IMG/VR virus record: IMGVR_UViG_3300017728_000002
Span: 1-64,000 of that record
DNA: 64,000 nt
Source of the DNA: a virus
Strand: one strand, 5' to 3'
Shown: positions 14,557 through 64,000 of the stretch, piece after piece
Layout of the letters: every line of letters begins with the position of its first letter
How positions within the stretch are numbered: position 1 is the first letter of the stretch
Translations under genes and position numbers: made by a program
Notes under the pieces: model-generated
Database searches by the model: none
Seen by the model: only the letters and a program-made list of their open reading frames with translations
What the model was told of the DNA's origin: nothing

Positions 14557-14580
14557 TATGACAGAAGACAGACGTTAGAT

Positions 14581-16790: not shown

Positions 16791-16815
16791 TTCATTTTAA
16801 TATCCATAAATTTTT

Positions 16816-16840: not shown

Positions 16841-16898
16841 GGCATAGGGTTGCATATGTGCATTACATACGTTACGTTAACCAAATAATCTATGGAAT

Positions 16899-17791: not shown

Positions 17792-17842
17792 CATATAGCC
17801 GGTATTATGTACTAAGGTTAATGTTATTAGCAATAATGTGCA

Positions 17843-22821: not shown

Positions 22822-22837
22822 CGAGTTCTGTTTTTCT

Positions 22838-22852
22838 TGGAATAATATTCCA
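22838..22852. repeat. Short inverted repeat between portal and scaffold genes
   Basis: TGGAAT-AAT-ATTCCA in the 51-bp gap, one of few gaps in the late operon. May be an RNA hairpin that sets relative expression of the scaffold/capsid genes. Confidence 0.4.
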
Positions 22853-22872
22853 TATAACCTACATTCAATACG

Positions 22873-23979: not shown

Positions 23980-23998
23980 CCTTTAATCTGACTAATCT

Positions 23999-41294: not shown

Positions 41295-42073
41295 ACTACC
41301 TACACATCTCTTCTAAAGCTGTCATTGCTAAGGTCTTCCGTGATCTTAAACCAGGAGACTCTTCCTGGACAATGGATGCAATAGAATGGCTGGGAGAGGC
41401 TTTAGATTTTATTGGGTTCCACGGAGTCTTTGATCATAAGGCTGCAGCACTTACAGTTAAGGATCACAAGACCGCTTTGCCCTGTGACCTATATCAACTC
41501 ATTCAAGTGGCGCATAATGGATGCGCTTTGGTATACGGCACTGATACCACTGGTTATACTGCAGATCATCGCGTTGCGTCTCCCGGAAATTCTGGTGGTC
41601 CTGTATATACTTCAGCAGTAGGCACTACAGTACCTACGGACGATCACAGCTCACCGGCTTTTACTTTAAAGTTTACCAAAGACCGAGGTACGTCAAACGA
41701 TTATTACCTCCTAAACGGAGGCAACCTGGTAACCAGCTTTGAGGAAGGTGAGGTTACTCTGTATTACACTGCATACCTCACCGATACCGATGGGTTCCCT
41801 TTGGTCCCTGACAACATTTACGTAAAGCAAGCACTAGAATGGTACATCATTCGACAGATGATGATGGGAGGCTTTGTCCATCCTGTATTCAATTGGGAAG
41901 TAGCCGATACCAAGTGGGGTCACTACTGTGTAGCTGCTCAAAACGACCTGAGTTTCCCGAGCATAGACAAGATGGAGACGATGAAGAACATGTTTGTTCG
42001 GATGGTGCCAAACATCAATCGTCACTCAGATTTCTTTATTGGGAATGAATCACAGGAGCGCCTGAAGAGATGA
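41291..42073 (+). CDS. Ring/adaptor protein candidate of the crAss-like tail
   Basis: 260 aa. N-terminal helices include SSWTMDAIEWLGEALDFIG, a motif-like stretch I associate with crAss-like connector proteins; a beta domain and a C-terminal helical part follow. It is ATGA-coupled to the muzzle-like gene, the expected neighbour. Confidence 0.55.
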   Translation: MNYLHISSKAVIAKVFRDLKPGDSSWTMDAIEWLGEALDFIGFHGVFDHKAAALTVKDHKTALPCDLYQLIQVAHNGCALVYGTDTTGYTADHRVASPGNSGGPVYTSAVGTTVPTDDHSSPAFTLKFTKDRGTSNDYYLLNGGNLVTSFEEGEVTLYYTAYLTDTDGFPLVPDNIYVKQALEWYIIRQMMMGGFVHPVFNWEVADTKWGHYCVAAQNDLSFPSIDKMETMKNMFVRMVPNINRHSDFFIGNESQERLKR

Positions 42074-45521: not shown

Positions 45522-45668
45522 ATGGGTCGACCCAATCCTCGGCACGGTAGGGGACGTGGTAGGTTAAAAGCTAAGCCACAAAAGTCCAAGCGTGTCAAAC
45601 AGCAAATCAACAGCAGTACAGAACTCACTGTAACTCCATGGTTTCCTGAAGATGAGGAAGAAGATTAA
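45522..45668 (+). CDS. 48-aa protein with basic start and acidic end
   Basis: Begins MGRPNPRHGRGRGRLKAK and ends FPEDEEED. The ATG lies 14 bp after the muzzle gene; the end overlaps the next gene by 17 bp in another frame. Function unknown. Confidence 0.55.
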   Translation: MGRPNPRHGRGRGRLKAKPQKSKRVKQQINSSTELTVTPWFPEDEEED

Positions 45669-47400
45669 AAAGATGAACGCTGGGGGCATTCCTCCAGGGT
45701 TTAATCCCGACGCATTGTTTTCATATCTGCAAGGTCAAATGGGGACTGGAGGGTCTGGTATGGGTCAGCTAATGCCAGAGCTGCAACAGCAGAATGAGTT
45801 TGATCAAGCTGCAACTCGCCTAAACCAGCTAGAAAAAGCTAAGCAAGGCATTATGACTGGTAAGCAGTTGGTACAAACTGCGCGTGGAATTAAGAAAGGA
45901 GCAGACCTAGCTTCTGCGAGTAAAACTTCTGCAGACCTATTAGGCAAGCTTGGGCAAGGAACCACTACAGCTGCTTTGCCTACGGCAGCTACTGAAGTTG
46001 CCAAGCAAGGGATTCAGAATGGAGGGCTGGCATCTTTTCTAAAAACAGGTGCAGGAGGTTTTGCTTCTGCAGGTCTTGGTATTGGCGGTAAGCTTATTCA
46101 AGAGATTGACAAGAAAGATGGCAACTATAGTACAGCTGGAGCTATGGGTGGTGGCGCTATGCAAGGTGCTGCTATGGGGGCAGCTCTTGGACCATTAGGT
46201 ATGATTGCCGGTGGTGCTATTGGTGCAGGTGTAGGGTACATGCAAAAGGGTAAGTTTGAAGCCAATGCGCGTGCGGAAGAGTTGACTAAGAAAACAGATT
46301 TAGCGCGTGAGTCTGCACAAAAACAACTGGCAGGTCGTGCTATCCTTAAGACTTTTCCTGTAGAAGGAATCAAGAATCAGATCTACGCTAAGGGAGGAGA
46401 GACTGACCCTAAAAACCCCAGTACACGGGGCATCATAAATGCTCAAAACTTCTTAAGACAGCAAGGCGTTGAAATGCCGGCAGATGGCAAATGGAGTGAT
46501 GAGTGGGAACAAGCATACACTGACTACCTAGATGCGTCAGACAGTTCAATGTTTGAACCAATGGATGATCAAAATGCTACAAACACCAAGGAATTTGGTC
46601 GTGTTCTTCCATTGAATGCATCTATGCTGGTCCAAGATGTATTTGACAATCAGCTTGAAAAGCTTACTGGATACGACCGACGAAAAGCTCCTGGTGCTCC
46701 AGCTTACACTAAAGCGGAAAAAGAGGCAATGGATGCTATTGTCCAACGCAATCTAGAAAAAGGCAAGTACCACATTGAATATGGTGATTACAACACTGGA
46801 ACTACTTACGGAGATGTAGGTGGCGGTAGCTCTACCATAGATGTTGCAAAAAAATCTTACAGCGATGCCTACAACCTAAAAACTACGTTTGGGCAAGCTA
46901 TGATTGGAGAGATTCCAGCATGGAATGATCGTCCGGCTGATACCATGGTGTACGATACTTACGACTTTAACAATGCCCAAGACAAGCCATTAACAGACTT
47001 TTCTGGATGGAAAAGCGTAGGTGGTGCGTTGCTTACCGGAAACTTGTATGGAGCTGCTAGAGCTTTGGGTACTGAGTTTGGTAGTAAGGATGGAAAAGGT
47101 CGCACCAACACTATGATTACCAATCGTGCGCATGGAGGACCAACGCATCCAACAGTTCAGACTTCGCCTGACTATATCGCAGAGGGTGGGGAGATGATTC
47201 AGCATGCTCCTGGAGACCTTCCAGCAACAGACAGAAACGGCAGCGTTAAGCCTATTACAGAAACCATCGCTCGTATTGAAGGCGACAAGCACATTGCCAA
47301 AAGCGGTGGCGTGGGTATGTCAGGAGACAAACCTGCACGAATCTATTCTGATCAGTTGCACGTGCCAGCTGATGTTTTGAAACAACTAATGAAACTCTAA
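45652..47400 (+). CDS. Internal virion protein candidate with glycine-zipper membrane segment
   Basis: 582 aa. An N-terminal disordered part, a Gly/Ala/Met-rich segment (about residues 160-200) like a glycine-zipper membrane insert, then a putative peptidoglycan-binding-like helical piece (FLRQQGVEMPADGKWSDEWE near 265), and a C-terminal domain with EGGEMIQHAPGD and GDKHIAKSGGVG patterns seen in Bacteroidota phage ejection-type proteins. It probably leaves the capsid with the DNA. Inference from composition and place. Confidence 0.6.
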   Translation: MRKKIKKMNAGGIPPGFNPDALFSYLQGQMGTGGSGMGQLMPELQQQNEFDQAATRLNQLEKAKQGIMTGKQLVQTARGIKKGADLASASKTSADLLGKLGQGTTTAALPTAATEVAKQGIQNGGLASFLKTGAGGFASAGLGIGGKLIQEIDKKDGNYSTAGAMGGGAMQGAAMGAALGPLGMIAGGAIGAGVGYMQKGKFEANARAEELTKKTDLARESAQKQLAGRAILKTFPVEGIKNQIYAKGGETDPKNPSTRGIINAQNFLRQQGVEMPADGKWSDEWEQAYTDYLDASDSSMFEPMDDQNATNTKEFGRVLPLNASMLVQDVFDNQLEKLTGYDRRKAPGAPAYTKAEKEAMDAIVQRNLEKGKYHIEYGDYNTGTTYGDVGGGSSTIDVAKKSYSDAYNLKTTFGQAMIGEIPAWNDRPADTMVYDTYDFNNAQDKPLTDFSGWKSVGGALLTGNLYGAARALGTEFGSKDGKGRTNTMITNRAHGGPTHPTVQTSPDYIAEGGEMIQHAPGDLPATDRNGSVKPITETIARIEGDKHIAKSGGVGMSGDKPARIYSDQLHVPADVLKQLMKL

Positions 47401-49001
47401 TGGGTAAGAAGACTTACGCAGCTGTAATGGACGACATGTCCAAAAAGCTCAATTCTTATGAGAAGCGATTGGCTGATGCTAAACGGCGCGGAGATATGGT
47501 GGGTATCCAAGACTTTGGTCGTCGGGTAGAACGGATGAATGCAGGTATTAATACTCTGTTCCAAACTCAAGAATCCAATAAGCCTGCAATGGGTCATGGT
47601 GGTAAAACCCATTATGCTGAGGGTGGTGTGGTTGGAGTTGATGGGATGGTCCATATCGGAGGAGTTGATGGTCCTGTTGCGTATGACAATACAGGACAAC
47701 CTGTTATGGCTGGTAACAATGCTCCAGGCACAGCTTGGGACAGTCCTATGTTGTTGTTTGACGAAGCGGGTACACCTATGGCTGATGTTGTTGTAGGTCC
47801 AGAAAACACGAGCTCTACTATTGGTCAAGCTGCAACAACTCGAGAAGAGTATGATGCGCTTATGGCCAATGCTCAAGCTAGAGAAGCTGCTGCTGCTCAA
47901 TCTCAATCACAGCTAAGTGCGCCTACCAGTCCTATAGGTCCGCCAAACTTGACAGTCACTCCAGACCCTAGAAGAGTTCCGGTAGGGCAACAGCTTCCGC
48001 GTGAACGTCCTATGGTAGGGTCAAGCTTGCAAGAGTTTAACAATGCAATGAATTCTCAGGTTATGTCTGGAGGTGTGGATGAAACCGCAGCACCAAATGT
48101 GCAAAGGTTTGGTCCGTTAGATGGGACGCAGTACCCACCGCATAACCCAGTCAACACTCCAGCTGCATCAAGTACATCAAGTACAGCTGGAGCGGCTGTT
48201 GCCTCTGCGCCACAACCTGCACAACCTGCACAACCTGCACAGTCAATGCAGCCATTGCAGGCAAGACAAGCGGTTCAACCAAGTAGTGGTGTGATGAACC
48301 CTGGAGCTAATCCTAACGCTACCATTAAAACAGCGTCAGATCCAGCGGCTGTAGGTGCTACAAGTCCACCTACTCAAGGACAACCGCAAGGAGGTATGCA
48401 GGACTTCTTGAATATGCTTGCTCCAGAGCCTAATAAGCTTGCTCAATACGGACAGTACTTGCCTGATCTGTATTCAATGTATCAGATGAATCAAACGCAA
48501 GGTCCAATTAATATGCCCTCTCAAACGATGGCTCGGCAGAACACAGACTTGAATTACAATTCAGTCTATGCTGGGGCTCGTCAAAACGTAGCTGCTCAAG
48601 AAGCATCGTTGGATAGAAACATTTCCAACCCTGTAGTTCGAGCAGCTATGAAGCGTTCTGCACGGAATCAACAGCAACAGCAGATGGGTCAAACCATGAC
48701 CAATGAAATAAACCAAGAGCGTCAACTACAAAATCAGTACGCTCAGTCTATTGCAAACAACCAGAATGTCAATCGGCAGATTGCTACTCAGAACCAACAG
48801 CGTCAACTTGATTTTGCCAATGAGCGTAAGGCAGCCAATGCCAGCTTAGCGCAAGGGCTTGGTACTAAAATGTCCCAGCAATACGGAGAAAATCAAAACA
48901 GAAATTTAGATCTGCAAAAAATGGGCATATCTGCTTTACAGTACGACGGTGACTTGATGCAACGCATGCAACAGAACCTAACCAACATCTTCAACTTATG
49001 A
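47400..49001 (+). CDS. Internal virion protein candidate with Gln/Pro/Ala-rich part
   Basis: 533 aa. Helical N-terminus (SKKLNSYEKRLADAKRRGDM), a GGKTHYAEGGVV motif like the neighbour's C-terminal one, a disordered Pro/Gln/Ala-rich middle including a tandem QPA run, and a long Gln/Asn-rich helical end. TAATG overlap before, ATGA overlap after. Likely an ejected or DNA-associated virion protein. Confidence 0.6.
   Translation: MGKKTYAAVMDDMSKKLNSYEKRLADAKRRGDMVGIQDFGRRVERMNAGINTLFQTQESNKPAMGHGGKTHYAEGGVVGVDGMVHIGGVDGPVAYDNTGQPVMAGNNAPGTAWDSPMLLFDEAGTPMADVVVGPENTSSTIGQAATTREEYDALMANAQAREAAAAQSQSQLSAPTSPIGPPNLTVTPDPRRVPVGQQLPRERPMVGSSLQEFNNAMNSQVMSGGVDETAAPNVQRFGPLDGTQYPPHNPVNTPAASSTSSTAGAAVASAPQPAQPAQPAQSMQPLQARQAVQPSSGVMNPGANPNATIKTASDPAAVGATSPPTQGQPQGGMQDFLNMLAPEPNKLAQYGQYLPDLYSMYQMNQTQGPINMPSQTMARQNTDLNYNSVYAGARQNVAAQEASLDRNISNPVVRAAMKRSARNQQQQQMGQTMTNEINQERQLQNQYAQSIANNQNVNRQIATQNQQRQLDFANERKAANASLAQGLGTKMSQQYGENQNRNLDLQKMGISALQYDGDLMQRMQQNLTNIFNL
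48211..48242 (+). repeat. 9-bp tandem repeat inside the gene (ACAACCTGC)
   Basis: Three direct copies of ACAACCTGC plus a partial one, encoding QPA-QPA-QPA. Such repeats can change copy number by slippage without frameshift. Confidence 0.75.
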
Positions 49002-51187
49002 GCATTTTTGACAAGTTCAAGGTCAACCCTTACATCAGTACGTATGCAGGGGCTCCTATTGGTGAGTTTAATCAGACGGCTGGCACGTTGCAACAACGTA
49101 TGCTGTCTAACATCTCTAAAAGCAATGAGATTGAGCTGGCTATGGATCGATTACAGGCCAGTGGAGTAGATGAAGAGTTTAAGCGTCAGAAGATAGCGGA
49201 GTATGAAAAGCAGATTGATGAGATATCTGAAGCTCCAGAGTATGCTACTCAAAAAGTAATGGCTCTGGCACAGCGGTCTCAGATGGATGAGGACTTTAAG
49301 TTGATGGAAGCCAACGCAAAGCAAAAAGCAGCCATTGAAGCTGAAATGGCAGAAATGGATGTAACCGATCCACAGCGCTACAAGTACCAACAACTGCTTG
49401 ACAGCTACGAACAAGTTGATGAAGACGGAAAAGCAGGTGCTGCTGCAGGTCGCAAGTTTGGCTCAATCAATTTCTATGAAGAGCAAGTTCTGGGAGACTT
49501 GGTCGATGAGCGCGTAGATGGAATTCAAGCCATGAAAAGTGGATTTGCTACGATTCAAGATGATGGTACAATCCGTACAGACAAGGGTGAGATTATTACT
49601 CAAGAACGCGTTATGCAAAGTGCCATGGGAGTACTCTCAGACGAGGCTGTAAAACGGCAAGTATCTGATGAAGTGGCTTTCCGTATGCGCGATCAGCTAG
49701 AAGGGCTTAGTCCGCAGGCCAAGCAACAAGCAATTGCTGCAGCTATGCCTCAATACTTCTTTGATCAATACGTCCAAGGAGCCATATCTAAGTATGCTCG
49801 AAAAGACCACATGTTTGATCTTAAAGGAGGGCGTAAAGAATTGGCAAAAGGATACAGCACTTCTGCAACAGGTGCTCCTATGTACAGCTACGATTCTCAA
49901 GCTGTGGTGCAGAATCGATTAACGGATAAGGTCACAGATGCCAGGTCTTTTCTTGAAGAAGCTCTTGCTGTAGAAGAGCGTATGAATACACCGTCTATAG
50001 AGTACGCTTCTCATACAGATGTAGTAGCCGATGAAAACTATAAAGCGCAGCTCAACACTATTTATGATGAAATGATAGAAACGACTAAGGGGCTTTCTGG
50101 TCAATCTAAAAATGTCATGAGAAAGTTGTTTAGTGGGCCTGAGGGTTATCAAAAGTTGTATGATATGCAACGACAAGCCGGAAACGGTGCTCTTAGACAA
50201 TTAACTCCAGAGGAAGCAGAAAGTGTTGATGCATTTAATCCTTTAGGCGCGATGAAGATGGCAACTGTAGAATTAGAGGGCGGTCCTCAAGGATACGGTT
50301 TAGATGCTATATACAAGGATATTAAGGCAGCGTATGCCGACGAATTCACTGAAAAACAAATGGCAAATGCTACAAAAGAAATATACCGATGGAGTAGGGG
50401 TACTTGGTTGGGAGAAGACATGTCTAACCTAATTAAAAAAGGAGCAGGAGATGTCGCAATTGACTCTAAATATGTTACCCTGCCAGCCGAGCTTAATAAA
50501 GAATTGAATTTAGACGAATCTGCGCAAACCATATTTAATCAGTTTATAGCGGGCGACTTGGAAGGTGCTGTTTTACAGCAAGATATGGATTCAGGGCGTA
50601 TGGTTCCAGTGACTAAAGACGACATGAGCACATATGACATGGGTTCTATGAAAGTGACAGGTTTAAACAAAACAGGAGCCCCAGGAACAATTCAAATCAG
50701 CATTAATGAACACGCTGATACAGGTACAGGTCCTCAAAAAACAATGCTTGTGAATTTGAATCAGTTCAATACTGACTTGTCTGCAAAAATGGCCAATCAG
50801 TTTAAGAAGGAGTCAATGAACAAGGGAGAAAACCAACAGCTCTTTAGCACCTTGGCATTTAATTTTGGGGAGCAAGAGCTGTTTACTAGCGCTCAAAAAG
50901 CTGTTAATGATGTTGGATCTAGTAAAGAGCCAATTCCAATTGCAGGCAAAGAAGTTCAAGCTCAGTACGCAACGGCATTAGGAACTAGTGCTTTGTACTT
51001 GATGTACGACCAGCCAAAGGGTGAATATTATGTAAGAAAAGAAAACGGAGAAATAATTGGCACTGTGGGCAACCGAAAGTTTAATCATAAAGATCATGCC
51101 ATTTCTCATATGATTACAAAGGCTGGTGAAGCTTTGAATCCTAAGCCTAAAGGCAGGCAGAACAAAACCATAGTACCTAAAACCTGA
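48998..51187 (+). CDS. Large internal virion protein candidate
   Basis: 729 aa. Mostly helical, acidic, with an early coiled-coil region (about residues 50-130) and many Gln/Glu/Lys. No enzyme motif found. It stands between the two other internal-virion candidates and the giant polymerase protein, so is likely part of the ejected set (crAss-like virions carry several large cargo proteins). Confidence 0.6.
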   Translation: MSIFDKFKVNPYISTYAGAPIGEFNQTAGTLQQRMLSNISKSNEIELAMDRLQASGVDEEFKRQKIAEYEKQIDEISEAPEYATQKVMALAQRSQMDEDFKLMEANAKQKAAIEAEMAEMDVTDPQRYKYQQLLDSYEQVDEDGKAGAAAGRKFGSINFYEEQVLGDLVDERVDGIQAMKSGFATIQDDGTIRTDKGEIITQERVMQSAMGVLSDEAVKRQVSDEVAFRMRDQLEGLSPQAKQQAIAAAMPQYFFDQYVQGAISKYARKDHMFDLKGGRKELAKGYSTSATGAPMYSYDSQAVVQNRLTDKVTDARSFLEEALAVEERMNTPSIEYASHTDVVADENYKAQLNTIYDEMIETTKGLSGQSKNVMRKLFSGPEGYQKLYDMQRQAGNGALRQLTPEEAESVDAFNPLGAMKMATVELEGGPQGYGLDAIYKDIKAAYADEFTEKQMANATKEIYRWSRGTWLGEDMSNLIKKGAGDVAIDSKYVTLPAELNKELNLDESAQTIFNQFIAGDLEGAVLQQDMDSGRMVPVTKDDMSTYDMGSMKVTGLNKTGAPGTIQISINEHADTGTGPQKTMLVNLNQFNTDLSAKMANQFKKESMNKGENQQLFSTLAFNFGEQELFTSAQKAVNDVGSSKEPIPIAGKEVQAQYATALGTSALYLMYDQPKGEYYVRKENGEIIGTVGNRKFNHKDHAISHMITKAGEALNPKPKGRQNKTIVPKT

Positions 51188-51226: not shown

Positions 51227-54200
51227 ATGTCTGAAAACAACACTACTCCTGATTCTTCTTTTGAATCTCGTCAGGAAGACGCAGGGCTTACGCCTAAATC
51301 CAACATCCGTTTTGGCTTAAAACAAGACCCGCTCTATCAAGAGCAAGGGATGTTTCAAAGCCGTATGACCGAAAATCCGCAGGTCAAAGGAATAGACGTA
51401 CAGAAGTATGCCCCTTACACAGGGTACATTACCCACCTTGGCACGCGTGATGCTATGCGGGCACGTGGTCAAAGCGTTGCAGAAAAGTGGGGCAATGGAA
51501 TTTATCAAGCTGTAGTAGGCGAAGTAGTTGGGGGCAGTCTTCAAGGCTTAGGAGCCTTAGGTATGCTGGTTGACAGTGAGAAGAACTTTCTTTATGAGCT
51601 AGGTGAAGCCATCAATGAAGGAGCAAGAGACGCTACTCCTATTTATAAGCATAGCGACAAAGCGTTTGCGTTCAATGATGCTGGTTGGTGGGCCAGTAAT
51701 CTGGGCAATATTCTTAGCACTGTAAGTATGTTGGTGCCAGGTATGGCAGTGTCCAAAGGTGCAAGTCTAGCTGCTCGAGGTCTTGTTGCAGCAGGTAAAG
51801 CTGGCAAGGCTGTTAAAGCAGGAAAAACCATTGGCAAAGCTGGAAAGGTTGCAGGTAAGGCTGCAGGTGAAGCTGCTGACGTTACTGCAGATGCTATGAA
51901 AGCTTCTGTGCGCGCACAGCGGCTAGAAAAAACCATGCAAACAGTTGCAGGTGGTTATGGCATGCGTCACGCTGAAAACATTCGTGAAGGCGTAGATGTC
52001 GCTGTCCAAGCTGAGGAAGAGTTTATGCAAGATGGGCGGGCTTTAGAAGATTTTAAAGGGACTGTTGCGTACGATCAATACCTCAAGGATCACGATCAGA
52101 AAGCGCCTATGAACAAGCAAGAGCTTGCTTCGTATGTCGGAGGTCAAGCAGCAGTGCGTTCGTATCAATTTAACATGTTGAATCTGGTATTTGATGTGTT
52201 TCAAATGGGTACAATTTTTAAGCCCTTTAAAGCTGTAACGCGCGGTCAAGGTGTAGGTAAAGTAGGAGCTGCAGCCGCTGGTAAAGCAGCCGCTGGATTG
52301 GATAAAGGAACGCGTGCTACTCGAGCTTTAGAGAAAAGCAAAGGATTCTTAACTGAAGTGGGCAAAGCTGCTACAGAGGGCATAGAAGAGTCAATCAACT
52401 TTATGGGAAGTGGCGAGGGCATGGCCCGTGCAGAATATTTAAGAGGGGTAGAGACTGGAAGCTTTGGAGAACGTCTTGACGATTACTTCCACGACTCGCA
52501 CTTGTATGAAAGTGCTTTCTGGGGTTTCCTTGGAGGAGGAGTGTTTCAAGGTCTTGGGTCCATTATGGGCAAGAAGCAAGATGCTGCTATGACTTCTTTG
52601 CTTCGCCAGCAAGAAACCTTGGTTCGCGAAAGCGCAGAACTAGCCAAGGCTGAGAAAAGTGGCGATACAGAAAAAGCCAATCAAATTCGAGCCAGGGTAA
52701 TGGCTGATTTGGGCATCCGTGCTAGCCAATCTGGACGTGTAGATCAATTGCTAGATCAGCTCAATAGCGATGACTTCATGAAGCAGCTCCAAGAGCAAGG
52801 TCTGTTGGGCGAAAAGAGCATTGAAGAAGCTCGTAATGAACTGATTGAAGGCGTATTAAAGCAAGAAAAAGACTACAAGAAGATTGCTGAAGTTGCGGAA
52901 GAATACGGGTTGAGTAGTCAGGAAATGTTTGTCTTGCTTAAACAGCAGAACTCGTATGATGCTGGGTTAAAAAGCATTGCTGAGAAGCTTGAAGCAATTG
53001 ACGATGCAAGCATTACTGAAGATCAAAAGCTTGCAGCTAAGTTTCAGCTGCGCGATTCGTTGGTTGAGCTTCAGAAGAAGGTAAAAAAGGAAAAGGGCAA
53101 AGACTCAAAGACTCCGTTTGGAGCAGAGTTAAAAGCGTTGCAGGAAGAGCTTAAAGACAAGGAGAAGCCTGCTGAGTTTGAGAAACTGCTGACCTACGAG
53201 GCTTTCAATCAAGCAAGGTTGTTGGCCGAACAAACCAGGTTAAAGCGAAAGCGTGCTGAGCTTACTACTGAACAGTCTCTTGCATATACTCGAACTACAG
53301 TAAATGCGTACAACAAGAATCAAGAAAAAGTCATTGCTGCTAGTTTCAAAAAGAGAGTTGCTGAAGAAGAAAATCTAGATATTCTCAATAAACTTCTTGA
53401 ACAGGCCAAACGAAATAAAGCTAAAGACCAGGAAATACTAATATCTGAGCGCATTGCTGAATTGAAAAAAACCAATGCTGACAAAACAGATGCAGACAAA
53501 GCTCAAGAGGAAAATGAAGAAGGAGGTACTCCTGTACCTAAAGATGACTCTACTGAAGAAAATGAGCCTCCTACAGAAAATGAACCTTCTAAAGAGAATG
53601 AGCCTCCTGAAGAGAATGATCCTGATGTAAGTGATGTTCTACCTGAAGGAGTAGTTCTCGAAGATGATGACGAGGTAGACTACACCCTTGCTTATAGAGA
53701 GCCTTACGCTGATGGTTCTCCTTTTGATTTTGGTTCATTAACCAATCAGGAACGAAGGTTTTTAGATGCTTTAGATAACTTAGATACCGCTGAAACAGTG
53801 GAGAAAGCTCAAGCCCTTGTTTCTTTTGTACGCAACTACATTTTAAAGCAGCAAGAAGAAGGGAAGCCAATTAAACGCAAGTTTGATGGTAAAGTGGTTG
53901 ACCAGGCTATTGCATATTTAGCAGAGGCTGAAAAAACTCCACCAGCTGCACCACAAGATTCTGCACCACAAGATTCTGCACCACAAGATCCTACTTCGGA
54001 CCCACCTACAGACCTACCTACAGATGACTTAGAGAATAGTACAGTCAAGGCTTTGAAAGCCATTGCTCGTCAAGAAGGGTTGACAGGTTATTCTAAGTTG
54101 AACAAGGCAGAGCTAGTTGCTGCTATTCGTGCACATCGTGAGCAAGCTACTTTGTTTCCTGAAAATAAAGTAACTCCACCTACAGATGAATCGCCTGCTG

Positions 54201-57200
54201 AAAAGAAACGGAGAGAATCGCAGCAAAACCGTGTTGAGAAGCACAGCAAAGAACTTTATGAAGCGTTAGAAAGCTATGCAGAAGCTGTAGCTAATAGAGA
54301 TGCACTTCAAGATTCTAAGAATGCAGATAGTAAGGAAGCTGTTGCTGCTGAACTAGCCGCAGACAAAGCGGCAATGAAAGTGTTAAATGCCTTAAATAAT
54401 CTTACTAGTCACAGTCTGTTGTCTCAACAGAACAAAGTAGAAAGCTACATCTCTTCAGACTTACGTGAGTATATGGAGCTAGCTACAGAGACTTTAGAAC
54501 AAGATGGTTACACTTCAGATCATGTAAAACCTGGTCAAGTATATGACGAAACGTTGTCGGTAGATGTGGAGATTGTTAACGACGAAACTTTAGAGCCAGG
54601 AGTAGAACTTATTCAAAAAATTAATCAACCCGAAATACGTAAAAAAGGAAAGGTGATACAGCGTGGCCAAGTTGTTGTTGTACAAGGGCCTTTGCTGAGT
54701 AAGCCAGTTATTGAACCAGAAACAGTTGAAGCTCCAGAAGGTCAGATCAAGATGATCATGAATGACTTGATGGAAGCGTTTTTGCAGCAGATGCAAATTC
54801 GCACAAGCGTAACCATGCCTACTACGCGTGTTAGGGAACACGCTCTTATTGAAGGGACTCGCTTGACTTTAGAAGGGCCGGTGGCAGAGCAGTATGAAGC
54901 GCTCATGTTTGCCTTGACTAACCCGTCAGCATCGGTTACAATTCGCATTTCAGACAATCAAGTAGAGGTCAAAAACCCCATTTACAAAACATCGGTAAAC
55001 AACAAGCTTGGGGTCAAATCTTTGACGCGAAAGACTGTTGGGTCAAAGACGTATACCTACGAAAACGAAGAAGACAACTCTCCTGACTACGAGGTTGTCG
55101 TTGAGTATCAGGGTAAAACTGTAGTCATTGGAAATGTACCTAGGGTGGGTACGTTGTTGAAGCAAGCTTCGCGTCTTCAAAATCAATACCGCAATCAGCC
55201 AACAGGCGATGACGCAGACGCAAACCCATACTGGAGAAACGCATATGCAGATGCCAACCTCAATGCATTGCAAGCCATTAGACATGCAGATGCGATAGCT
55301 CTATTTAGAAAATATCTGGATTCTCAAGACAGCGGATCTATCTCGTTTACTGGGTTGTCTGAGCAAATTGCCCTAGACGGCAGCTTTAAGCGCGGTAGTC
55401 TGCTTCGTCCTAGCGATCAAATGGATACGCTAAATATGCATCCAGAAGTCACAGATGCCATAGACGAACACGGGCTGTGCGTCATGATGACTGATCCTTC
55501 TAGTGGAGAGCCTTATCTGTTGAATCTAAAAACGGGTTTAAAGACTGCAGTACCATACCAAGATGGTGTGATGGCTATGAATGCTCAAGCAGGGACTTAT
55601 GCGTTTAAAAACCAGTCTAACAAGATCTCTAGTACCGGAGCAGTTTTCATTCCTATCCGAGATCCCAACTCACCTTTAAAGCCAATGTGGGTTCGCATGC
55701 CCGACATGACTTTGAAAGAGGCCAATCGTACCGACTTTGTAAGCAACATCTTGTACGGACCAGGCACTTCAGAACAAAAGTTTGAATTGCTTCGAAGTGT
55801 AATGTCTACACCGCCTCCAAGTGTGACATCTGAAAGTCAGATCATGGAAGGGTTCACAGGCGCAGCTTTTATAAGCGGACCGTCTAATGGACAACCTCGA
55901 TTGGTTATTCTCAAAGACAGGAAGATTGTCATGGACTTTAATCCAGATGGCACGCCTCGCACTGAGATTCAAAAAGCTGTTCTTGAGCAGCTGAAGTTTA
56001 GGCTAGATGCAAAATCGCCCGAGCTTGCCAGCTACGAAAAAGAAGGAAAACGAGACGAGGAAACTAGGCAAACTTTAAAGTCGTTAGCTCAAAGCATTAA
56101 GCAAAACGGTAGAATGCCTATTGCTCCCGTTGTTAAAAAAGACAGTGCGGGTAATGATGTAATCATAGGCTACCACCATCCTGTTCCTGCTGCACGATTT
56201 GAACGAGACAGAGAAGCGCAATCTCAAAACCAACTGTTCAACCCAGAGGCTCAGAGTACCATGCTGCCTATTGCCATTGATATGGCACGTCTTCAAGCTC
56301 AAAACCCAGAAGCTCCTGCATCACCAGATACAAAACCTACAGACACTTCTGATCCGAAGAAGTCCAACGAAAAAGGGGGGGAGTCGACTGATTTTTGGAA
56401 TGAATCAGATGACGGTGCAATGTTTATGACTGTAGAAAAGGCTTTAGCAAGCGACTTTTACGCCATGTCTACCTCTAAAGATCAGTTAGAAGCGGAGTTG
56501 TGGCTTGCTAAAAACCTGCCTCACGTTCCGTTTCGAAGAGTCAAGGGCCTTATTGAACGTGGCGGTGTTACCGCATACGGTATATGGGAACAGGGTATGA
56601 TCAGGGTCAGTGATATATCTGTAGTAGGTACAGAGTATCACGAAGCCTTGCACGCTGTAATGGACACATACCTTTCTCCTAAGCGAAGAGCAAAGATTAT
56701 GGCTGAAGCCCGTGCTAAGTATGGAGACTTAGGGCCTATCAAGCTAGAAGAAAAGATTGCTGAGGCTTTTCGAGAGTACATGCTAACGGAAGGAAAAAGC
56801 ATGACAGAGAAAAGTGCACTGCGCCGGTTTTTCTCTGAGATACTGGCATTGGTTCAAGCCATGTTCCAAGGACAATACCGTACTCGGCAGTTGATGCAAA
56901 ACATCAACAGAGGGAGGTATGCGTATAAGCCTAGCCAGCGCTCTAAAAACTTTCTGACTAAGTTCAGTAAGGTTCCTGCCTTTGATGCTGCTGAAATGAG
57001 CGAGCTAGAGCAGGTCATGCCTTTTTTGGTAAACTACATCCTTAAAGACATTCGTGAAGCATTTGTAGGGAACAATCCAAAAGACGTGCTTATGCGACGT
57101 TATGGAAGGGAAGAAGACGCCCAAGTACTTGAAGGATTGCTCCAAACGATAGCAGAGATTAAAGACTTGTCTGTAGAATCAGATGAAGACGGAAATACAA

Positions 57201-60200
57201 TAGAAATTCAGCGAGAGAAAAAGAAGCTCATAGCTGAAGGTATTATTCGCGTAATTTTTGATAGTCGTGGGTTGTTCCAATACATGATTAAGTCTTCAAG
57301 TAGAGCGTCTGAAGAAAGAAAACTAGAGATCTATGATCGGTTAGGTCATAACGAAGAAGTACTGGTTGAACACTTCAGTACAAACCCAAGAGTGCAGCGC
57401 ATGATTATGCAAGCAATTGCAATTGATGCCAGCACAGGTACCACGGACATAGAGCAGAACTTCTCTGCTAGCATAGCAGAAATCAATCCTATGGATAAGG
57501 TTCCTGCCAGTATCAAGAACTTGATTTCAAGAACCATTTACATCCCTGGAGACAGAAGTGGTCGCTTGATTGAAACAATCTTAGGTAATCAAGGTACCGA
57601 AGCAGCTCTTGAAGCCATTGCAGAAGTGTCAGGCACTGACGTAGATAAATCTGATGCCTTCAGTCGATTTGGCTTGCCTCGGTTTTTACAGTTTGAAACG
57701 GTGTATCCTTTCCTGTTAAACCAGTTGAGTTCGCTGCCTTCATACGAAGCTATGGAAACCCGGATGCTAGAGTTGAGCGTGTACAACCCAAGCTTGGCAT
57801 CTATTGTTTTGGCATTGCGTAAAGACGCTGAGCCAGGCACACTTACAGAACTGCAAAAACAATTCTATGTGGGCATGAAACGCGCAAGCTCAGAAGAGCT
57901 GAACGTTTCTTTGGAAACCCAGTATGATGAAAGAGTTGAACGGAAATTTCAAGTACCTGTAGTAAAAGATGAGTTCATTTATGAACCGGCCTGGCATTTG
58001 GTCCAACGTAACAAGGAGGCTGTTTACAACGCCATCCTTCAGTTTACTCCAGCGGAAAAGGAAAAGGTCCTAAATGCTTTAAGTGCGTTGGCAAAACAGC
58101 GTAACGAAACTCCTGAAGTAAGAGTTAAAACCATTAAAATTTTGGTTAGGACTTTTCAAAAACTTGAGTTTTCTACTATGGACCCTTCTGCATTGGCTAA
58201 CGCTATGCATGTTATGTCTAATAATGAATTAGGCGGGTTAGCTGATATGCTTGAACGTCTCATTCTTGCTGGAAATGAAGCGCAGACTTCAGCAATACTT
58301 AGGGAGGTGGTACGAATTATGAAGCTTGCTGACGCAGACATGGGCGCAGTTCAAAGCTCGTATATGTCTAATCTGAAAACCAAGTATGCTCACGTCAATC
58401 CTTCTTATTTAACCGAAGAATTAGACCGCTTAAAAAGCGCCTTTAAAGAAGAATACCTTAAAGAAAGGTTTGCCCACAATGCTCATTTAGAAGAGAGTAT
58501 GTGGCATATTATGTTGGATGAAGAGTCTTTAACCTATCGCAGGTTTGGACAACTGGGCCCGCATGCATACACCGATATGGATGTAGCGCAAAGGCTTGAG
58601 TATGACCTTCTAGCATTGTTTAGAATGGGTAAAAATGCTCAAGGACGTCAGATCAGAGTTACGGGGTACTCTGCAATCCCTACACCTAGCGATGCAACTG
58701 GATCGTTTATGGTCAGTAACGACTTTGTACATTATCCTGAAAACGTTAAAAACAGGATTTTAGCCAGTATCTACGACGCAGAGACACGTAAAGACGTAAC
58801 CCATATGTCTTTGCCTATTGATCGTAGTAAAGTAGACATCAATAGCATAGAGTCTAAAGCCGAGTATATGCGTGCTTTGCTAGAGCAAGAAGCCGCGGCA
58901 TTGCTGTCTATTCCAGAGTTCAAAGAAGTCATAGACAAGCTACAAGTTCCTTTAGGGTATGGACCAGTCGAGGGACGCAGTCGAGATGAGGGCCGCGTTA
59001 CGATGGTCAACTCATATGTAGCCGCTACATATGTATCCAATTGGAACGTGTCTAATTGGATGGGTGGAACCATTGATCACTTTGGAGGAGACGTTACCAA
59101 GTATCAAAAGCGTTTTAAGCAGATTATGAGCCCTGGGCAAACCAGCGCAGATAAAGGCACGTTTAGAAACGTAACCATTGAAGATCCCGTAGTTTTTGAA
59201 GACTGGGCAACAGAAGTAGAGTACTCTGACAATGGCAAACCGGTTAAGAACGCGGACGGAACTTACCGTCGTATTCCATCTGCCATTGATCGTGCTGATG
59301 CACAGAGCTATGTAACGCTAGACTTTTGGGAGCGGATGCTTTCTTCTCATGGAGAGCTTACAGACTATAAGAAAGCGGTCATAGAAAAAGCCCGTAAAGG
59401 AGAGGCTCTAAGTGTGTCTGAGCGTTCAGTATTTGCTCCATACAAGCCCTTCTACTTTGGATGGGTTCAAGGCCAGCCGCACCAACTTAAAAACTCTGTC
59501 ATCCCACTTTTACCACCGGTCAAAGGTCAAGCTCCCATTAGCGTAGAACTAGAGGCTATGCGTAAGTGGATGGTACACCCAGATAATAAAGTAGATCAAA
59601 TCACTTTGAAGTCTGCGCACAAGGTGGGTGTGACCAGCAAGGCTACTTCTATGTTTCAGGATGGCAAGTTCAAAGCACCAGAGCCTGGGTACACTCAGTA
59701 CGACTTGCCCATGGAGTTCCACCGCAATCAAGTGTCTATTACAGAACACAACAACCACAATGGAACAGTAGGCTTGGGTACTCAAACAGGTCCAATCATT
59801 ATGTCTAACCTCAGGAATTATGAGGGGTTAGGGGAAGTACACATCCAAAAGTTGCTTAAGACAGAGCAACGCATGATGAACATGAAACTCAAGGAGCTTA
59901 AAGGCAAGCTCTTTGTACAAGGCACAGAATTAGGCAAGAACGGCGAGGAAGATGTAAGCAAGCGCACAGTTCCAGACGTAGCTCGTGTACGGCAGTATGT
60001 GCTAGACAACGTGCGTGATGATGTGCATCCAGCAGTTCTGGAAATTCTAAGCTCTCCCTTGGCTTCAGCAGGACGCATTAGTCCTTTGGTTGCTTTTGCG
60101 GTAAACCAAACTTTAGCAGCTGCCGTTCAAAAGGACTTTAAGAAGCAGAAAGTAACAGGCGGTATGCAGGTACAAATCTCTGATCTAGGCCATACCAATC

Positions 60201-63200
60201 CTACCACAGATGCGGACTTAAAAGGCATGCGTGTAGTAGGAAGTCAGCAAGAAGTTGAAGGTCCTTACACTTGGGACGACTCTATGGCTACAGATTTAAT
60301 TGTGGGGATGAATAACCGAGAGTTTGTAGTTGTAAAACTTGGAGAATCCCCAAAAACAGGTCGAGAACTAAATGCTGATGATTTTTTAAATGGACTTAAA
60401 GAAGGTTTTGAAGTCATAGACATGCATGGTAAAAAGCCTATGACCGTAGGCTTAGATTCAGCCATGGCTTCGTTAATGAAGCGAGATTTTGAAAAATGGT
60501 TAACTACTAAGAAAAATCTTAAAACACGTCCACAATCATTAGTTACTCCAGAATATATCAGTGACTATTCAGACCCAAAGCGAGAGCTGGCTCGCTACGT
60601 AAAAGAGCGTCAAACGAATAGAAAAGACTTTGAAGTTGATCCTGAACTAGAGTTGGCTTATGAATACTATCGATCTAAAGAGATTGATTCAGATAGGAAT
60701 AACGAGGCTTTTACGTCTTCTTCTTCTTCTCTGCCTACAGGACCAGAAAAAGTTGTAATGGCCGAGGTCAAGATGAACAGAAAGTTCTTGCCTAAGCAAT
60801 ACAGGGAAATGAGCATTGAAGAGATTCGTGCCATTGACCCTACACTGCTTGAAGTCATGGTCTATCGTGTTCCTGCAGAAGGAAAGAATTCTATGGCCAT
60901 GTGTAAGGTGGTGCAGTTCTTGCCTTCAGGTCAAGACGGCATGGTCATCCCCGCAGCTTTTGTAGCTCAAATGGGATCAGACTTTGACATTGACAAGCTC
61001 TTTGTGAATTGGAAGAAGGTGCCTAGGGAAGGCAGAGAGCTCAATGCTTACGACCGAGCAGCCAATAAGTTTTTTGATTTACAGAAGGATGTGCTGATGA
61101 ATCCTGAAGTGGTAAAGACAGAAGTGCTTGTACCACAGGGCTTTGAAACCATTAAGGCGTTTCGTACGGAGATGGCTACTGCCCGCAGGAAAGGAGGGGT
61201 TTCAGACATTGATGTCTTTGCTCAAAGACGTCCGTATAGTGCTTTGACTCACTTGCAATTGTGGTCAGACAATGTAGCAGGCATTGGATTGAAAGGCATT
61301 GCTGCCAACAACAATACGTTTTGGATGAAAGTCCAACGTCACAACATGCAAGTGGAAGGAATTCCTATGAAGGATATGCCGCTTGAGTTGATGCAATGGA
61401 ATGCAGAAGCAGTAGCTGCTTCTATGGACGGCGCAAAAGACCCTGTCTGGGGTACTATGGGCATTGACCGCAAGAACTTCTCGTTCTTCATGTACGAGTG
61501 TACCATGGGGTACATGCGGGCAATGAAAGAGAACCCAAGTGCAGACAAGGTTAAAACCTTGAATAAAGCTCGAAATGAAGCATTAGCGGCAGCAACTGAT
61601 TCAGATGTTATGCAAGCCATGACCACACGGGTTAATGACTTTAATGCAGAAACAGAAAAGACAGACAACGTAAAACGGTATCAGGCTTATTTAAAGCAAG
61701 AGGCATACCGGGCGTTGAAAGACTTGACCCGTGTCAGTGAGATGAAAATCAATAAGGAGTTGATTGATCTTCTTGCAGCTAAAGAGCCCGTTCTAGATAA
61801 TTATAACCTTACTCTAGACGCTGAAGGCAATATTATTTTAGACAGCGATGGTAACCCAGAGTTGCAAGCGGTAAAAGACGCCAAAGGAAACACTCTTCCA
61901 ACCATGGGAAAGGCTTATGTCAATGCTCCTGTCATTAAAGGCGCTTTGGATATTGCCACTGCTTCAGAGTTGCTGATGAGTGGCGGTATGGGGATTCACT
62001 ATTACCGCACTGTAGGTCGTTATAACGGCATCAGTTTCCCGCAATACTGCGCGGTTCAAACCTTTAAAGCAGCTGATGAATTTGTAGAAGGCAAGCGCGC
62101 AGAGGTCATGGGTGAGAGAAGCGTCAGTGAGCGTTTTAGAGAAGTGGACCTAGAGGATGTTCAGTCTTGGAACATGCGTCATTGGATCGTTTGGTTGAAT
62201 ACATCTGACGAAGGCCGAGCAATTCGAGACGACAAAGACAACGCGTTCTTGCGTAAGATGCTCTTGCATATCACGGTAGGCCGAGCCTACGAAGTAAACT
62301 ACAATCGTTACGATCGGATAACGCCAATCCAGCTTAACGACCCTATCAAAGCAGAAGAGTTTCAAAAGGCTTGGGAAAACACATTGACTCCGCCTTTATC
62401 CTATGAAGGGTCTGTTCACTACCCTTCTGAGTTTGCCAAAGCCTTAGTTCGCTACGAAGCTGCACGCAGTGGGTGGAGACGAGGGTCTTCAACCTTCACG
62501 CAGTTCTTGCCTACGGAGATTGTAAAAAATGTAAGCGGAGAGGACGCTACATCCTTGCAGATTGCAGCTCATGCTGTGTTGGATTCTAGGGTAGAGTCCG
62601 GTACAGAAAAAATGGCTTTGCTCAGCAACAGGCCTATGCGCTATGGTAAGCACACTTACGTGACTTTGCCTGGCGAAAACAGGCGGACAAAAGTGACCAC
62701 TCCTGTTTTGATGCTTGGGTTCAGAGGCATGTCATCTATAGATGCTATTGCAGGTGAGTTGCAGGTCAACCAATCCACTGTAGAGGAAGAGATAGCTGAG
62801 TACAAAGCCAAGCAAAAGAAGAGTCAAAGCCTTGAAGCATTTGGAGATATTGCTTCATCTACTACTACTTCTGAGCGCATTGCTATGCTTCAGAGTCGGT
62901 TTGCTTCTTATGGTATTAAGGTAAGAGTGGAGTTTGATTCCACTTTAGAAGGTGCCGGTGATGTGCAGTACGATAAGGAGTCTGGGGTCATTCGACTCCA
63001 CCCTGATCGCATGAAAAGCGATACGGTCTTGCACGAGTTTGGTCACATCTACATTGAGATGTTGGGGTTTGAAAACCCTGCTGTTCAGCAAGCCATTGAA
63101 GAGTTGCGCAACACTGAGCTGTATCGAGAGGTAGCAGAGATGTATCCACACTTAAGTCAAAGAGACTTAGATATGGAGGTTTTGGCTACAGCTATAGGTC

Positions 63201-64000
63201 TTGAAGGAGACGCCATCTATGACAAGGCTAAGAACCCCAACAAGCTTCGTACCCTGATCAATAAACTCTTTAGGGCTTTAGGTAAGTTGTTTGGTATCCA
63301 GCCTAACACCGCTCGGGAGTTGGCACGTAAGATGATTGAAGGGTCTGATGTTAGGACCAACAACTTAAAGTCATTCCGTGCAGAGCAACGATTGAAGAAA
63401 GGTTTGGATGCTCAGACCCTAATGATTGAGGTAGCTGATGAGATTATGAACCGCATCGATCATATGCGGCGATTGGGTGCCACTACCGAGGAGCAGCAAG
63501 TGCTTCTAGACAGCTTGCAAGAGGACTCTAGTATGTTTAGAGAAGTAGCAGAAAGTGGAGCTACAGCTGTATTGGATTCTCTGGTGGTTGCAATGTCAGA
63601 CTACTTGCAAAAAACTACTGAGTTTATCTCTCATGCGGAAACATATGTAGACACTTCTTCAGCAGCCGGGCTTAAAAAGCAAGACACTGAATTGTTGAAC
63701 CAGGCGTATCAGCTGAGTCAAGTGCTGAATACGTTTTCTCAAACGTTTGCCAGCTTTGATAAAGACACTGTAGATGTAGATTTTGATCAGCAAGAGCGGT
63801 TTGCAACAACCAACAAAGCTTTTGTGGAAATGGCAGGTCCTGTTCAGGTTATGCAAACCCGCTTGACCAGCTTGGTACGTAAGATGCTGAACAAAAAGCT
63901 GGTGGCTAATTCTAGTAACCCTAGGATCAAAGAAGCCATGGAAGCAGGGTTGGACATTTTCTCTTTGGCTCAAACTGAATTTGGCGACATCACTACCGAT
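51227..64000 (+). CDS. Giant virion protein: RNA polymerase (DFDID) plus two zincin domains, partial
   Basis: ATG 51227 opens a frame read as open to the window end: 4258 codons with no stop. N-terminus: Ala/Gly/Lys-rich membrane-active region (about residues 150-230). Residues about 560-850 are coiled-coil and Glu-rich; a Rho_N/SAP-like motif (STVKALKAIARQEGLTGYSK) lies near 940. First zincin: HEALH at 1805-1809 with downstream EEKIAEAF. RNA polymerase: MGSDFDIDKLF with DFDID at 3252-3256, the DxDxD metal-binding signature of crAss-like virion RNA polymerases (phi14:2 gp66 type). Second zincin: HEFGHIYIEML, His 3936. Expected to be injected to transcribe early genes; the zincins may process it or act on host targets. 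Confidence 0.85.
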   Translation, partial: MSENNTTPDSSFESRQEDAGLTPKSNIRFGLKQDPLYQEQGMFQSRMTENPQVKGIDVQKYAPYTGYITHLGTRDAMRARGQSVAEKWGNGIYQAVVGEVVGGSLQGLGALGMLVDSEKNFLYELGEAINEGARDATPIYKHSDKAFAFNDAGWWASNLGNILSTVSMLVPGMAVSKGASLAARGLVAAGKAGKAVKAGKTIGKAGKVAGKAAGEAADVTADAMKASVRAQRLEKTMQTVAGGYGMRHAENIREGVDVAVQAEEEFMQDGRALEDFKGTVAYDQYLKDHDQKAPMNKQELASYVGGQAAVRSYQFNMLNLVFDVFQMGTIFKPFKAVTRGQGVGKVGAAAAGKAAAGLDKGTRATRALEKSKGFLTEVGKAATEGIEESINFMGSGEGMARAEYLRGVETGSFGERLDDYFHDSHLYESAFWGFLGGGVFQGLGSIMGKKQDAAMTSLLRQQETLVRESAELAKAEKSGDTEKANQIRARVMADLGIRASQSGRVDQLLDQLNSDDFMKQLQEQGLLGEKSIEEARNELIEGVLKQEKDYKKIAEVAEEYGLSSQEMFVLLKQQNSYDAGLKSIAEKLEAIDDASITEDQKLAAKFQLRDSLVELQKKVKKEKGKDSKTPFGAELKALQEELKDKEKPAEFEKLLTYEAFNQARLLAEQTRLKRKRAELTTEQSLAYTRTTVNAYNKNQEKVIAASFKKRVAEEENLDILNKLLEQAKRNKAKDQEILISERIAELKKTNADKTDADKAQEENEEGGTPVPKDDSTEENEPPTENEPSKENEPPEENDPDVSDVLPEGVVLEDDDEVDYTLAYREPYADGSPFDFGSLTNQERRFLDALDNLDTAETVEKAQALVSFVRNYILKQQEEGKPIKRKFDGKVVDQAIAYLAEAEKTPPAAPQDSAPQDSAPQDPTSDPPTDLPTDDLENSTVKALKAIARQEGLTGYSKLNKAELVAAIRAHREQATLFPENKVTPPTDESPAEKKRRESQQNRVEKHSKELYEALESYAEAVANRDALQDSKNADSKEAVAAELAADKAAMKVLNALNNLTSHSLLSQQNKVESYISSDLREYMELATETLEQDGYTSDHVKPGQVYDETLSVDVEIVNDETLEPGVELIQKINQPEIRKKGKVIQRGQVVVVQGPLLSKPVIEPETVEAPEGQIKMIMNDLMEAFLQQMQIRTSVTMPTTRVREHALIEGTRLTLEGPVAEQYEALMFALTNPSASVTIRISDNQVEVKNPIYKTSVNNKLGVKSLTRKTVGSKTYTYENEEDNSPDYEVVVEYQGKTVVIGNVPRVGTLLKQASRLQNQYRNQPTGDDADANPYWRNAYADANLNALQAIRHADAIALFRKYLDSQDSGSISFTGLSEQIALDGSFKRGSLLRPSDQMDTLNMHPEVTDAIDEHGLCVMMTDPSSGEPYLLNLKTGLKTAVPYQDGVMAMNAQAGTYAFKNQSNKISSTGAVFIPIRDPNSPLKPMWVRMPDMTLKEANRTDFVSNILYGPGTSEQKFELLRSVMSTPPPSVTSESQIMEGFTGAAFISGPSNGQPRLVILKDRKIVMDFNPDGTPRTEIQKAVLEQLKFRLDAKSPELASYEKEGKRDEETRQTLKSLAQSIKQNGRMPIAPVVKKDSAGNDVIIGYHHPVPAARFERDREAQSQNQLFNPEAQSTMLPIAIDMARLQAQNPEAPASPDTKPTDTSDPKKSNEKGGESTDFWNESDDGAMFMTVEKALASDFYAMSTSKDQLEAELWLAKNLPHVPFRRVKGLIERGGVTAYGIWEQGMIRVSDISVVGTEYHEALHAVMDTYLSPKRRAKIMAEARAKYGDLGPIKLEEKIAEAFREYMLTEGKSMTEKSALRRFFSEILALVQAMFQGQYRTRQLMQNINRGRYAYKPSQRSKNFLTKFSKVPAFDAAEMSELEQVMPFLVNYILKDIREAFVGNNPKDVLMRRYGREEDAQVLEGLLQTIAEIKDLSVESDEDGNTIEIQREKKKLIAEGIIRVIFDSRGLFQYMIKSSSRASEERKLEIYDRLGHNEEVLVEHFSTNPRVQRMIMQAIAIDASTGTTDIEQNFSASIAEINPMDKVPASIKNLISRTIYIPGDRSGRLIETILGNQGTEAALEAIAEVSGTDVDKSDAFSRFGLPRFLQFETVYPFLLNQLSSLPSYEAMETRMLELSVYNPSLASIVLALRKDAEPGTLTELQKQFYVGMKRASSEELNVSLETQYDERVERKFQVPVVKDEFIYEPAWHLVQRNKEAVYNAILQFTPAEKEKVLNALSALAKQRNETPEVRVKTIKILVRTFQKLEFSTMDPSALANAMHVMSNNELGGLADMLERLILAGNEAQTSAILREVVRIMKLADADMGAVQSSYMSNLKTKYAHVNPSYLTEELDRLKSAFKEEYLKERFAHNAHLEESMWHIMLDEESLTYRRFGQLGPHAYTDMDVAQRLEYDLLALFRMGKNAQGRQIRVTGYSAIPTPSDATGSFMVSNDFVHYPENVKNRILASIYDAETRKDVTHMSLPIDRSKVDINSIESKAEYMRALLEQEAAALLSIPEFKEVIDKLQVPLGYGPVEGRSRDEGRVTMVNSYVAATYVSNWNVSNWMGGTIDHFGGDVTKYQKRFKQIMSPGQTSADKGTFRNVTIEDPVVFEDWATEVEYSDNGKPVKNADGTYRRIPSAIDRADAQSYVTLDFWERMLSSHGELTDYKKAVIEKARKGEALSVSERSVFAPYKPFYFGWVQGQPHQLKNSVIPLLPPVKGQAPISVELEAMRKWMVHPDNKVDQITLKSAHKVGVTSKATSMFQDGKFKAPEPGYTQYDLPMEFHRNQVSITEHNNHNGTVGLGTQTGPIIMSNLRNYEGLGEVHIQKLLKTEQRMMNMKLKELKGKLFVQGTELGKNGEEDVSKRTVPDVARVRQYVLDNVRDDVHPAVLEILSSPLASAGRISPLVAFAVNQTLAAAVQKDFKKQKVTGGMQVQISDLGHTNPTTDADLKGMRVVGSQQEVEGPYTWDDSMATDLIVGMNNREFVVVKLGESPKTGRELNADDFLNGLKEGFEVIDMHGKKPMTVGLDSAMASLMKRDFEKWLTTKKNLKTRPQSLVTPEYISDYSDPKRELARYVKERQTNRKDFEVDPELELAYEYYRSKEIDSDRNNEAFTSSSSSLPTGPEKVVMAEVKMNRKFLPKQYREMSIEEIRAIDPTLLEVMVYRVPAEGKNSMAMCKVVQFLPSGQDGMVIPAAFVAQMGSDFDIDKLFVNWKKVPREGRELNAYDRAANKFFDLQKDVLMNPEVVKTEVLVPQGFETIKAFRTEMATARRKGGVSDIDVFAQRRPYSALTHLQLWSDNVAGIGLKGIAANNNTFWMKVQRHNMQVEGIPMKDMPLELMQWNAEAVAASMDGAKDPVWGTMGIDRKNFSFFMYECTMGYMRAMKENPSADKVKTLNKARNEALAAATDSDVMQAMTTRVNDFNAETEKTDNVKRYQAYLKQEAYRALKDLTRVSEMKINKELIDLLAAKEPVLDNYNLTLDAEGNIILDSDGNPELQAVKDAKGNTLPTMGKAYVNAPVIKGALDIATASELLMSGGMGIHYYRTVGRYNGISFPQYCAVQTFKAADEFVEGKRAEVMGERSVSERFREVDLEDVQSWNMRHWIVWLNTSDEGRAIRDDKDNAFLRKMLLHITVGRAYEVNYNRYDRITPIQLNDPIKAEEFQKAWENTLTPPLSYEGSVHYPSEFAKALVRYEAARSGWRRGSSTFTQFLPTEIVKNVSGEDATSLQIAAHAVLDSRVESGTEKMALLSNRPMRYGKHTYVTLPGENRRTKVTTPVLMLGFRGMSSIDAIAGELQVNQSTVEEEIAEYKAKQKKSQSLEAFGDIASSTTTSERIAMLQSRFASYGIKVRVEFDSTLEGAGDVQYDKESGVIRLHPDRMKSDTVLHEFGHIYIEMLGFENPAVQQAIEELRNTELYREVAEMYPHLSQRDLDMEVLATAIGLEGDAIYDKAKNPNKLRTLINKLFRALGKLFGIQPNTARELARKMIEGSDVRTNNLKSFRAEQRLKKGLDAQTLMIEVADEIMNRIDHMRRLGATTEEQQVLLDSLQEDSSMFREVAESGATAVLDSLVVAMSDYLQKTTEFISHAETYVDTSSAAGLKKQDTELLNQAYQLSQVLNTFSQTFASFDKDTVDVDFDQQERFATTNKAFVEMAGPVQVMQTRLTSLVRKMLNKKLVANSSNPRIKEAMEAGLDIFSLAQTEFGDITTD
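53948..53992 (+). repeat. 15-bp tandem repeat in the giant gene (APQDS units)
   Basis: GCACCACAAGATTCT repeated twice plus a third copy ending in GATC, encoding APQDS-APQDS-APQDP. A flexible linker between the helical N-terminal part and the Rho_N/SAP-like motif. Confidence 0.75.

Follow-up and report, generated by a model that had tools for sequence, protein, structure and literature searches.

Does a viral reading frame of more than four thousand codons, with an RNA polymerase-like DFDID motif lying between two HExxH motifs, encode one real protein, and do the two putative proteases serve to cut it into parts? This question is raised by the window examined here, that is, the whole 64,000-nucleotide stretch of DNA that opens an 85,481-base virus record (bases 1-64000). 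Our analysis gives good confidence, for its identity as well as for its role as virion cargo, that the giant protein represents the crAss-like transcription and cargo block in single-gene form.

The giant gene and its setting

The genome is that of a crAss-like phage, as judged from its TerL, portal and major capsid proteins together with crAss ring and muzzle proteins. By tblastn, the capsid protein was 32-34% identical to those of Crassvirales, and the nearest TerL was found in the Flavobacterium phage Fpv group (39%), so that the nearest cultured relatives by this marker are Flavobacterium phages, including Fpv20. The giant gene sits downstream of the ring and muzzle genes, at the place of the transcription block in crAss-like phages. 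The main features of this neighbourhood are as follows:

18650..25426 (+), TerL, portal and major capsid protein of the crAss-like type (PHROGs E 5.8e-142, 1.4e-126 and 7.1e-89)
41291..42073 (+), crAss tail ring protein 1 (Pfam PF24228, E 9.7e-43)
42070..45507 (+), crAss muzzle protein (Pfam PF25731, E 4.9e-18)
45652..51187 (+), three ORFs (582, 533 and 729 aa) between the muzzle gene and the giant gene, listed by position
51227..64000 (+), giant probable virion cargo protein, residues 1-4258 of 5115, continuing to record position 66574

The three ORFs at 45652..51187 appear, from the gene order, to stand where crAss001 has its cargo genes gp45 and gp46, and position is what suggests roles for the 533- and 729-aa ORFs. 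The 582-aa ORF (45652-47400) matched phrog_7348 (E 2.7e-15) and has an endolysin-like stretch at residues 355-484, which perhaps aids in crossing the cell wall at entry.

In the ORF listing, the giant frame spans 4,258 aa and is open to the window edge. The first-pass annotation had placed HEALH at residue 1805, DFDID at 3252 and HEFGH at 3936 of this one frame, and all three positions were verified on the translation. When the gene was completed with the record sequence beyond the window, it was found to stop at 66574, giving 5,115 aa plus stop (573 kDa), with zero internal stops across all 5,115 residues. The composition of a protein of this length predicts 0.08 HExxH motifs, and two were observed. 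Many relatives carry two or three genes at the corresponding place, as would be expected if separate genes had been wrongly joined here by an assembly or sequencing error. However, a single ORF with the same order and both motifs occurs on the independent contigs L009 (4,656 aa), L011 (4,982 aa) and L065 (5,347 aa), with partial examples on L010, L012 and L013, and a frame disturbance was absent from every tool result. Because the independent contigs share this layout, we do not regard the giant ORF as an assembly artefact, and such an error is scarcely credible.

Domains of the giant protein

Pfam and PHROGs searches with the giant protein gave nothing beyond a Rho_N motif and weak matches. 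By blastp, crAss001 gp47, gp50 and gp49 match successive stretches of it, and on these alignments the giant protein is crAss001 gp47, gp50 and gp49 joined, in the order NT domain, zincin 1, polymerase, zincin 2, C-terminal (CT) part; the earlier proposal that several virion cargo proteins are fused in one polypeptide was thus upheld. Its predicted multi-domain content (polymerase, two zincins and Rho_N) is distributed as follows:

51344..51826 (+), NT domain, residues ~40-200 (blastp E 1.8e-15 to ctbg_1)
53417..53716 (+), acidic low-complexity linker, residues ~731-830, probably disordered by its composition
54026..54130 (+), Rho_N motif (HEH-type nucleic-acid-binding), residues 934-968 (Pfam PF07498, E 2.3e-6, above the curated cut-off)
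56417..57016 (+), zincin 1, residues ~1731-1930, with HEALH 1805-1809 and E1842 or E1846 as candidate third ligand
57068..62836 (+), RNA polymerase module with two barrels, residues ~1948-3870, aligning collinearly with residues 107-2116 of phi14:2 gp66
59144..59716 (+), first-barrel region, residues ~2640-2830, with invariant K2628 and R2629 just upstream
60752..61021 (+), second barrel with catalytic DFDID 3252-3256 (DNA 60980-60994), model pLDDT ~85-94
62867..63226 (+), zincin 2, residues ~3881-4000, with HEFGH 3936-3940 and E3984 as candidate third ligand
63227..64000 (+), start of the gp49-like C-terminal part (blastp to crAss001 gp49)

The NT domain is common to crAss001 gp47, phi14:2 gp67 and the ctbg_1 "RNAP associated protein", and its profile matched 48 ORFs. 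At the other end, the conserved CT region (residues ~4640-5070) lies outside the window at record ~65144-66436, where residues 4672-5047 matched crAss001 gp49 residues 909-1278 (blastp E 8e-17).

In tblastn searches the DFDID region matched crAss-like polymerases, phi14:2 gp66 among them. A first PDB profile match to the phi14:2 polymerase structure (6VR4) was discarded as circular, the profile having held phi14:2 itself, and the search was redone with profiles made from the window and IMG/VR loci only, the phi14:2 sequence being excluded. These matched 6VR4 with E 1.2e-146 (chain 1038-2114) and E 1.2e-139 (chain 121-1260), and the alignment carried window residue 1948 to gp66 residue 107, KR 2628-2629 to 893-894, 3252 to 1361 and 3829 to 2073. 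AlphaFold2 models of residues 1731-2930 (mean pLDDT 70.5, pTM 0.70) and 2896-4095 (mean pLDDT 62.7, pTM 0.51) both had 6VR4 as their best Foldseek match (E 6.1e-23 and 3.2e-8, respectively); the second model also matched cellular beta-prime subunits with high Foldseek probability, though with E of only 0.01-0.07. GSDFDxD showed no variation in a six-phage polymerase alignment. Profiles and structure prediction therefore agree on the phi14:2-type RNA polymerase that had been proposed around DFDID, a polymerase fold being predicted about residue 3252. As far as alignment and modelling can tell, the polymerase module is orthologous to the whole of phi14:2 gp66; the domain is of the two-barrel, 6VR4-like kind and not a T7-type single-subunit polymerase.

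Both HExxH sites are, by sequence conservation and predicted structure, zincin-like domains with an HExxH helix, a third-ligand glutamate helix and a small sheet, in agreement with the earlier reading of the two motifs. Zincin 1 matched crAss001 gp47 (blastp E 4e-16), and its H, E, H, E and E are identical throughout 19 aligned relatives; the predicted fold runs helix, strands, HExxH helix and a glutamate helix with E1842/E1846. Zincin 2 matched crAss001 gp49 (E 1.9e-9), and its H, E, H and E are identical throughout 14 aligned relatives; its predicted fold comprises a helix, three strands, the HExxH helix and a later helix with E3984, at pLDDT ~93-97 across most of the domain. Pfam and profile searches found no convincing Pfam peptidase family for either domain, the profile of zincin 1 being weakly like the Pro-Pro endopeptidase Zmp1 (E 0.012). 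Zincin 2 comes in two sequence types, HEFGH...EVLVTAI (the window's) and LHELTH...yG..EF (phi14:2 gp65), which matched each other with 91% probability in profile comparison. The idea that zincins 1 and 2 are clear recent copies of each other was rejected, with profile probabilities of 52% for the window type and 4% for the phi14:2 type.

A block repeatedly split and joined

A single-sequence search of IMG/VR with 1,200 residues returned zero relatives, and relatives were obtained instead with an alignment of six known polymerases; 549 were confirmed among the candidates read, and 80 were kept for analysis. The order NT domain, zincin 1, polymerase, zincin 2, CT was kept in ~80 viral loci and the six named phages, distributed over one to three frames, with the exceptions that some loci are without every part and that the crAss001 parts lie on two strands. 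Polymerase and CT share one frame in 27 of the 76 loci where both were seen. On a polymerase-core tree, the fusion state of polymerase and CT changed ~10 times, at least six of these changes falling on well supported branches; sequence comparison thus places fission or fusion of the cargo block at no fewer than six points, and the fusion that had been noted in the window is real but recurrent. Polymerase and both intact zincins stand in one frame in the window, L009, L010, L011, L012, L013 and L065. Zincin 1 is 64% identical to the window's in L009 and about a quarter identical in more distant contigs.

The named phages show the same parts in different arrangements. In phi14:2, gp66 (PDB 6VR4) has the DFDID centre and is collinear with the giant's polymerase over residues 107-2116, the NT domain lies in gp67, and zincin 2 and CT lie in gp65; unlike the giant, these are three separate genes, and zincin 1 was not detected. 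crAss001 (Kehishuvirus primarius) carries the same domains in gp47, gp50 and gp49, all three being virion proteins by mass spectrometry (PMC10172136), with the polymerase in gp50 and zincin 1 intact in gp47; these are three genes on two strands, however, and zincin 2 of gp49 is without its first histidine. In ctbg_1 (Whopevirus animalis), a protein annotated as "putative RNAP associated protein fused to zincin protease" adjoins a 4,407-aa "putative RNAP", but there are two genes, with the zincin in the upstream protein and CT fused to the polymerase. In Flavobacterium phage Fpv20 (gp33, of 4,419 aa, and gp34), a single virion structural protein holds both the polymerase and zincin 2, whereas zincin 1 was not found and CT is in a separate gene.

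Two observations on single contigs may be added. On L046 (minus strand, 1-3153), an intact zincin 1 is opposite in strand to the polymerase, as in crAss001. L003 encodes at 13181-18724 (minus strand) a 1,847-aa ORF with dockerin-like repeats (FNGDGVVGAVDLINML...), with a similar ORF next to it at the record end, which could be a host-surface or fibre-like protein.

Role of the zincins

The first-pass annotation had suggested that the zincins may cut the precursor into functional parts. Zincins with this function should be intact when fused to the polymerase and dispensable when separate, and this pattern was not seen across the group of loci. Zincin 2 was intact in 31 and dead in five fused cases, and intact in 14 and dead in four separate ones, with no association between integrity and fusion (Fisher P 0.46); four of these rows are unsafe (L007 and L057, where the matched zincin was upstream, and L061 and L071, with broken matches), and the counts without them are 30, 5, 13 and 2. 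Tree-independent pairs likewise gave no trend, with little power from only ~5 supported pairs. Zincin 1 is almost always in the polymerase frame, leaving no contrast for an association test, and its motif was lost in nine of 35 fused cases, seven with YWEAFRR in place of YHEAFH in one clade (L014, L018, L019, L020, L055, L060 and L079) and two with HEAFE (L041 and L063). Dead zincin 2 domains in fused chains (L023, L024, L039, L043 and L084) read LEELIH, LEEIVH, LEEMIH, IEEIIH and LKEIVH. Conversely, intact zincin 2 occurs apart from the polymerase gene in phi14:2 gp65, cr53_1, L022, L027, L029, L033, L047, L050 and L067, and crAss001 has its intact zincin 1 in a gene separate from the polymerase; in gp49 of that phage (L005), residues ~200-300 are what is left of a zincin 2, its motif reading EEFAH against HEFGH in the window. 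Since fully fused proteins can carry dead zincins and separately encoded zincins can be intact, self-cutting is not supported as a function shared by these domains.

Cuts at both flanks of the polymerase, made inside the capsid or once the protein has entered the host, would free functional parts, and some observations point that way. The zincins flank the polymerase module, where gene ends fall in other genomes; every close relative in the window's branch (L009-L012) is fused with both active sites intact; and zincin autoproteolysis has been proposed for phage P1 DdrB (PMC5512222). However, in addition to the independence of zincin 2 integrity from fusion and the mismatched dead and intact domains, N4 packages its zincin-bearing virion polymerase without cleaving it (PMC5512222), and we consider self-processing unlikely in general. 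The narrower proposal that in the window's own branch the zincins excise the polymerase by cutting at the borders of its module, while the virion is being packaged or once the host has been entered, is quite improbable too; if true, L009-L012 would have a self-maturing virion polymerase, and other branches would get there by separate genes. A different reading is that the zincins serve chiefly in structure or packaging and can do without catalysis. Zincin 1 persists as a domain throughout one clade in which a conserved YWEAFRR has taken the place of the motif, and the zincin-bearing region of the N4 polymerase is needed for encapsidation (PMC5512222), but the metal-binding residues of most relatives stay unchanged in domains that have otherwise diverged (many zincin 1 rows at 20-30% identity), which implies selection for catalysis. 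We therefore hold a mainly structural role to be conceivable but doubtful. The reading that we prefer, at about even confidence, is that the zincins work in trans, once inside the host, on host proteins or on other proteins that are ejected, those with a lost active site serving as structural parts.

From the better-studied relatives we infer how the giant protein may be packaged, ejected and used. The ~573 kDa chain is probably packed whole inside the capsid and would exit via the tail partly unfolded, as proposed for the crAss001 cargo (PMC10172136), and refold in the host, where the two-barrel module may transcribe early genes, as shown for the phi14:2 polymerase (reported in PMC10136315 and PMC7886860). 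The chain may be anchored in the ejected cargo assembly by its NT and CT parts, and both zincins, at the polymerase edges, are old components of the cargo set.

The closest working parallel for a giant polymerase-zincin fusion is, by analogy, the N4 virion RNA polymerase, which is likewise of giant size, ejected, and joined to a zincin in one chain (PMC5512222) and whose HExxH domain is noted in PMC12633501. However, the N4 polymerase is of T7 type, not two-barrel, and of separate descent, and the parallel is therefore a likeness of design, not membership. Rho_N-type domains, like that of the giant protein, also occur in the class of polyvalent proteins (Iyer 2017; PMC5512222). Giant crAss-like polymerases, of up to ~6,000 residues and described as a group hallmark (PMC10136315; PMC7886860), and zincins fused to virion polymerases are already known, and the autoproteolysis idea for zincin-bearing phage proteins was published in 2017 (PMC5512222); in the literature searched, we found no papers naming zincins together with crAss-like phages. 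In our comparison the crAss-like cargo set emerges as a single ordered block that has repeatedly been broken up and rejoined, its polymerase flanked by two ancient zincins. With zincins that are intact or dead, fused or separate, natural relatives allow a direct test of what these domains do in ejected phage proteins; the question was put forward in 2017 with regard to N4-like and plasmid proteins.

The YWEAFRR clade appears to hold a pseudoenzyme zincin 1 within polymerase fusions of up to ~5,600 residues. HExxH motifs were also observed in phi14:2 gp70 (L004:5824-7605), a tail protein encoded a few genes before the polymerase block, with HEFTH at 234 and HEFIH at 461.
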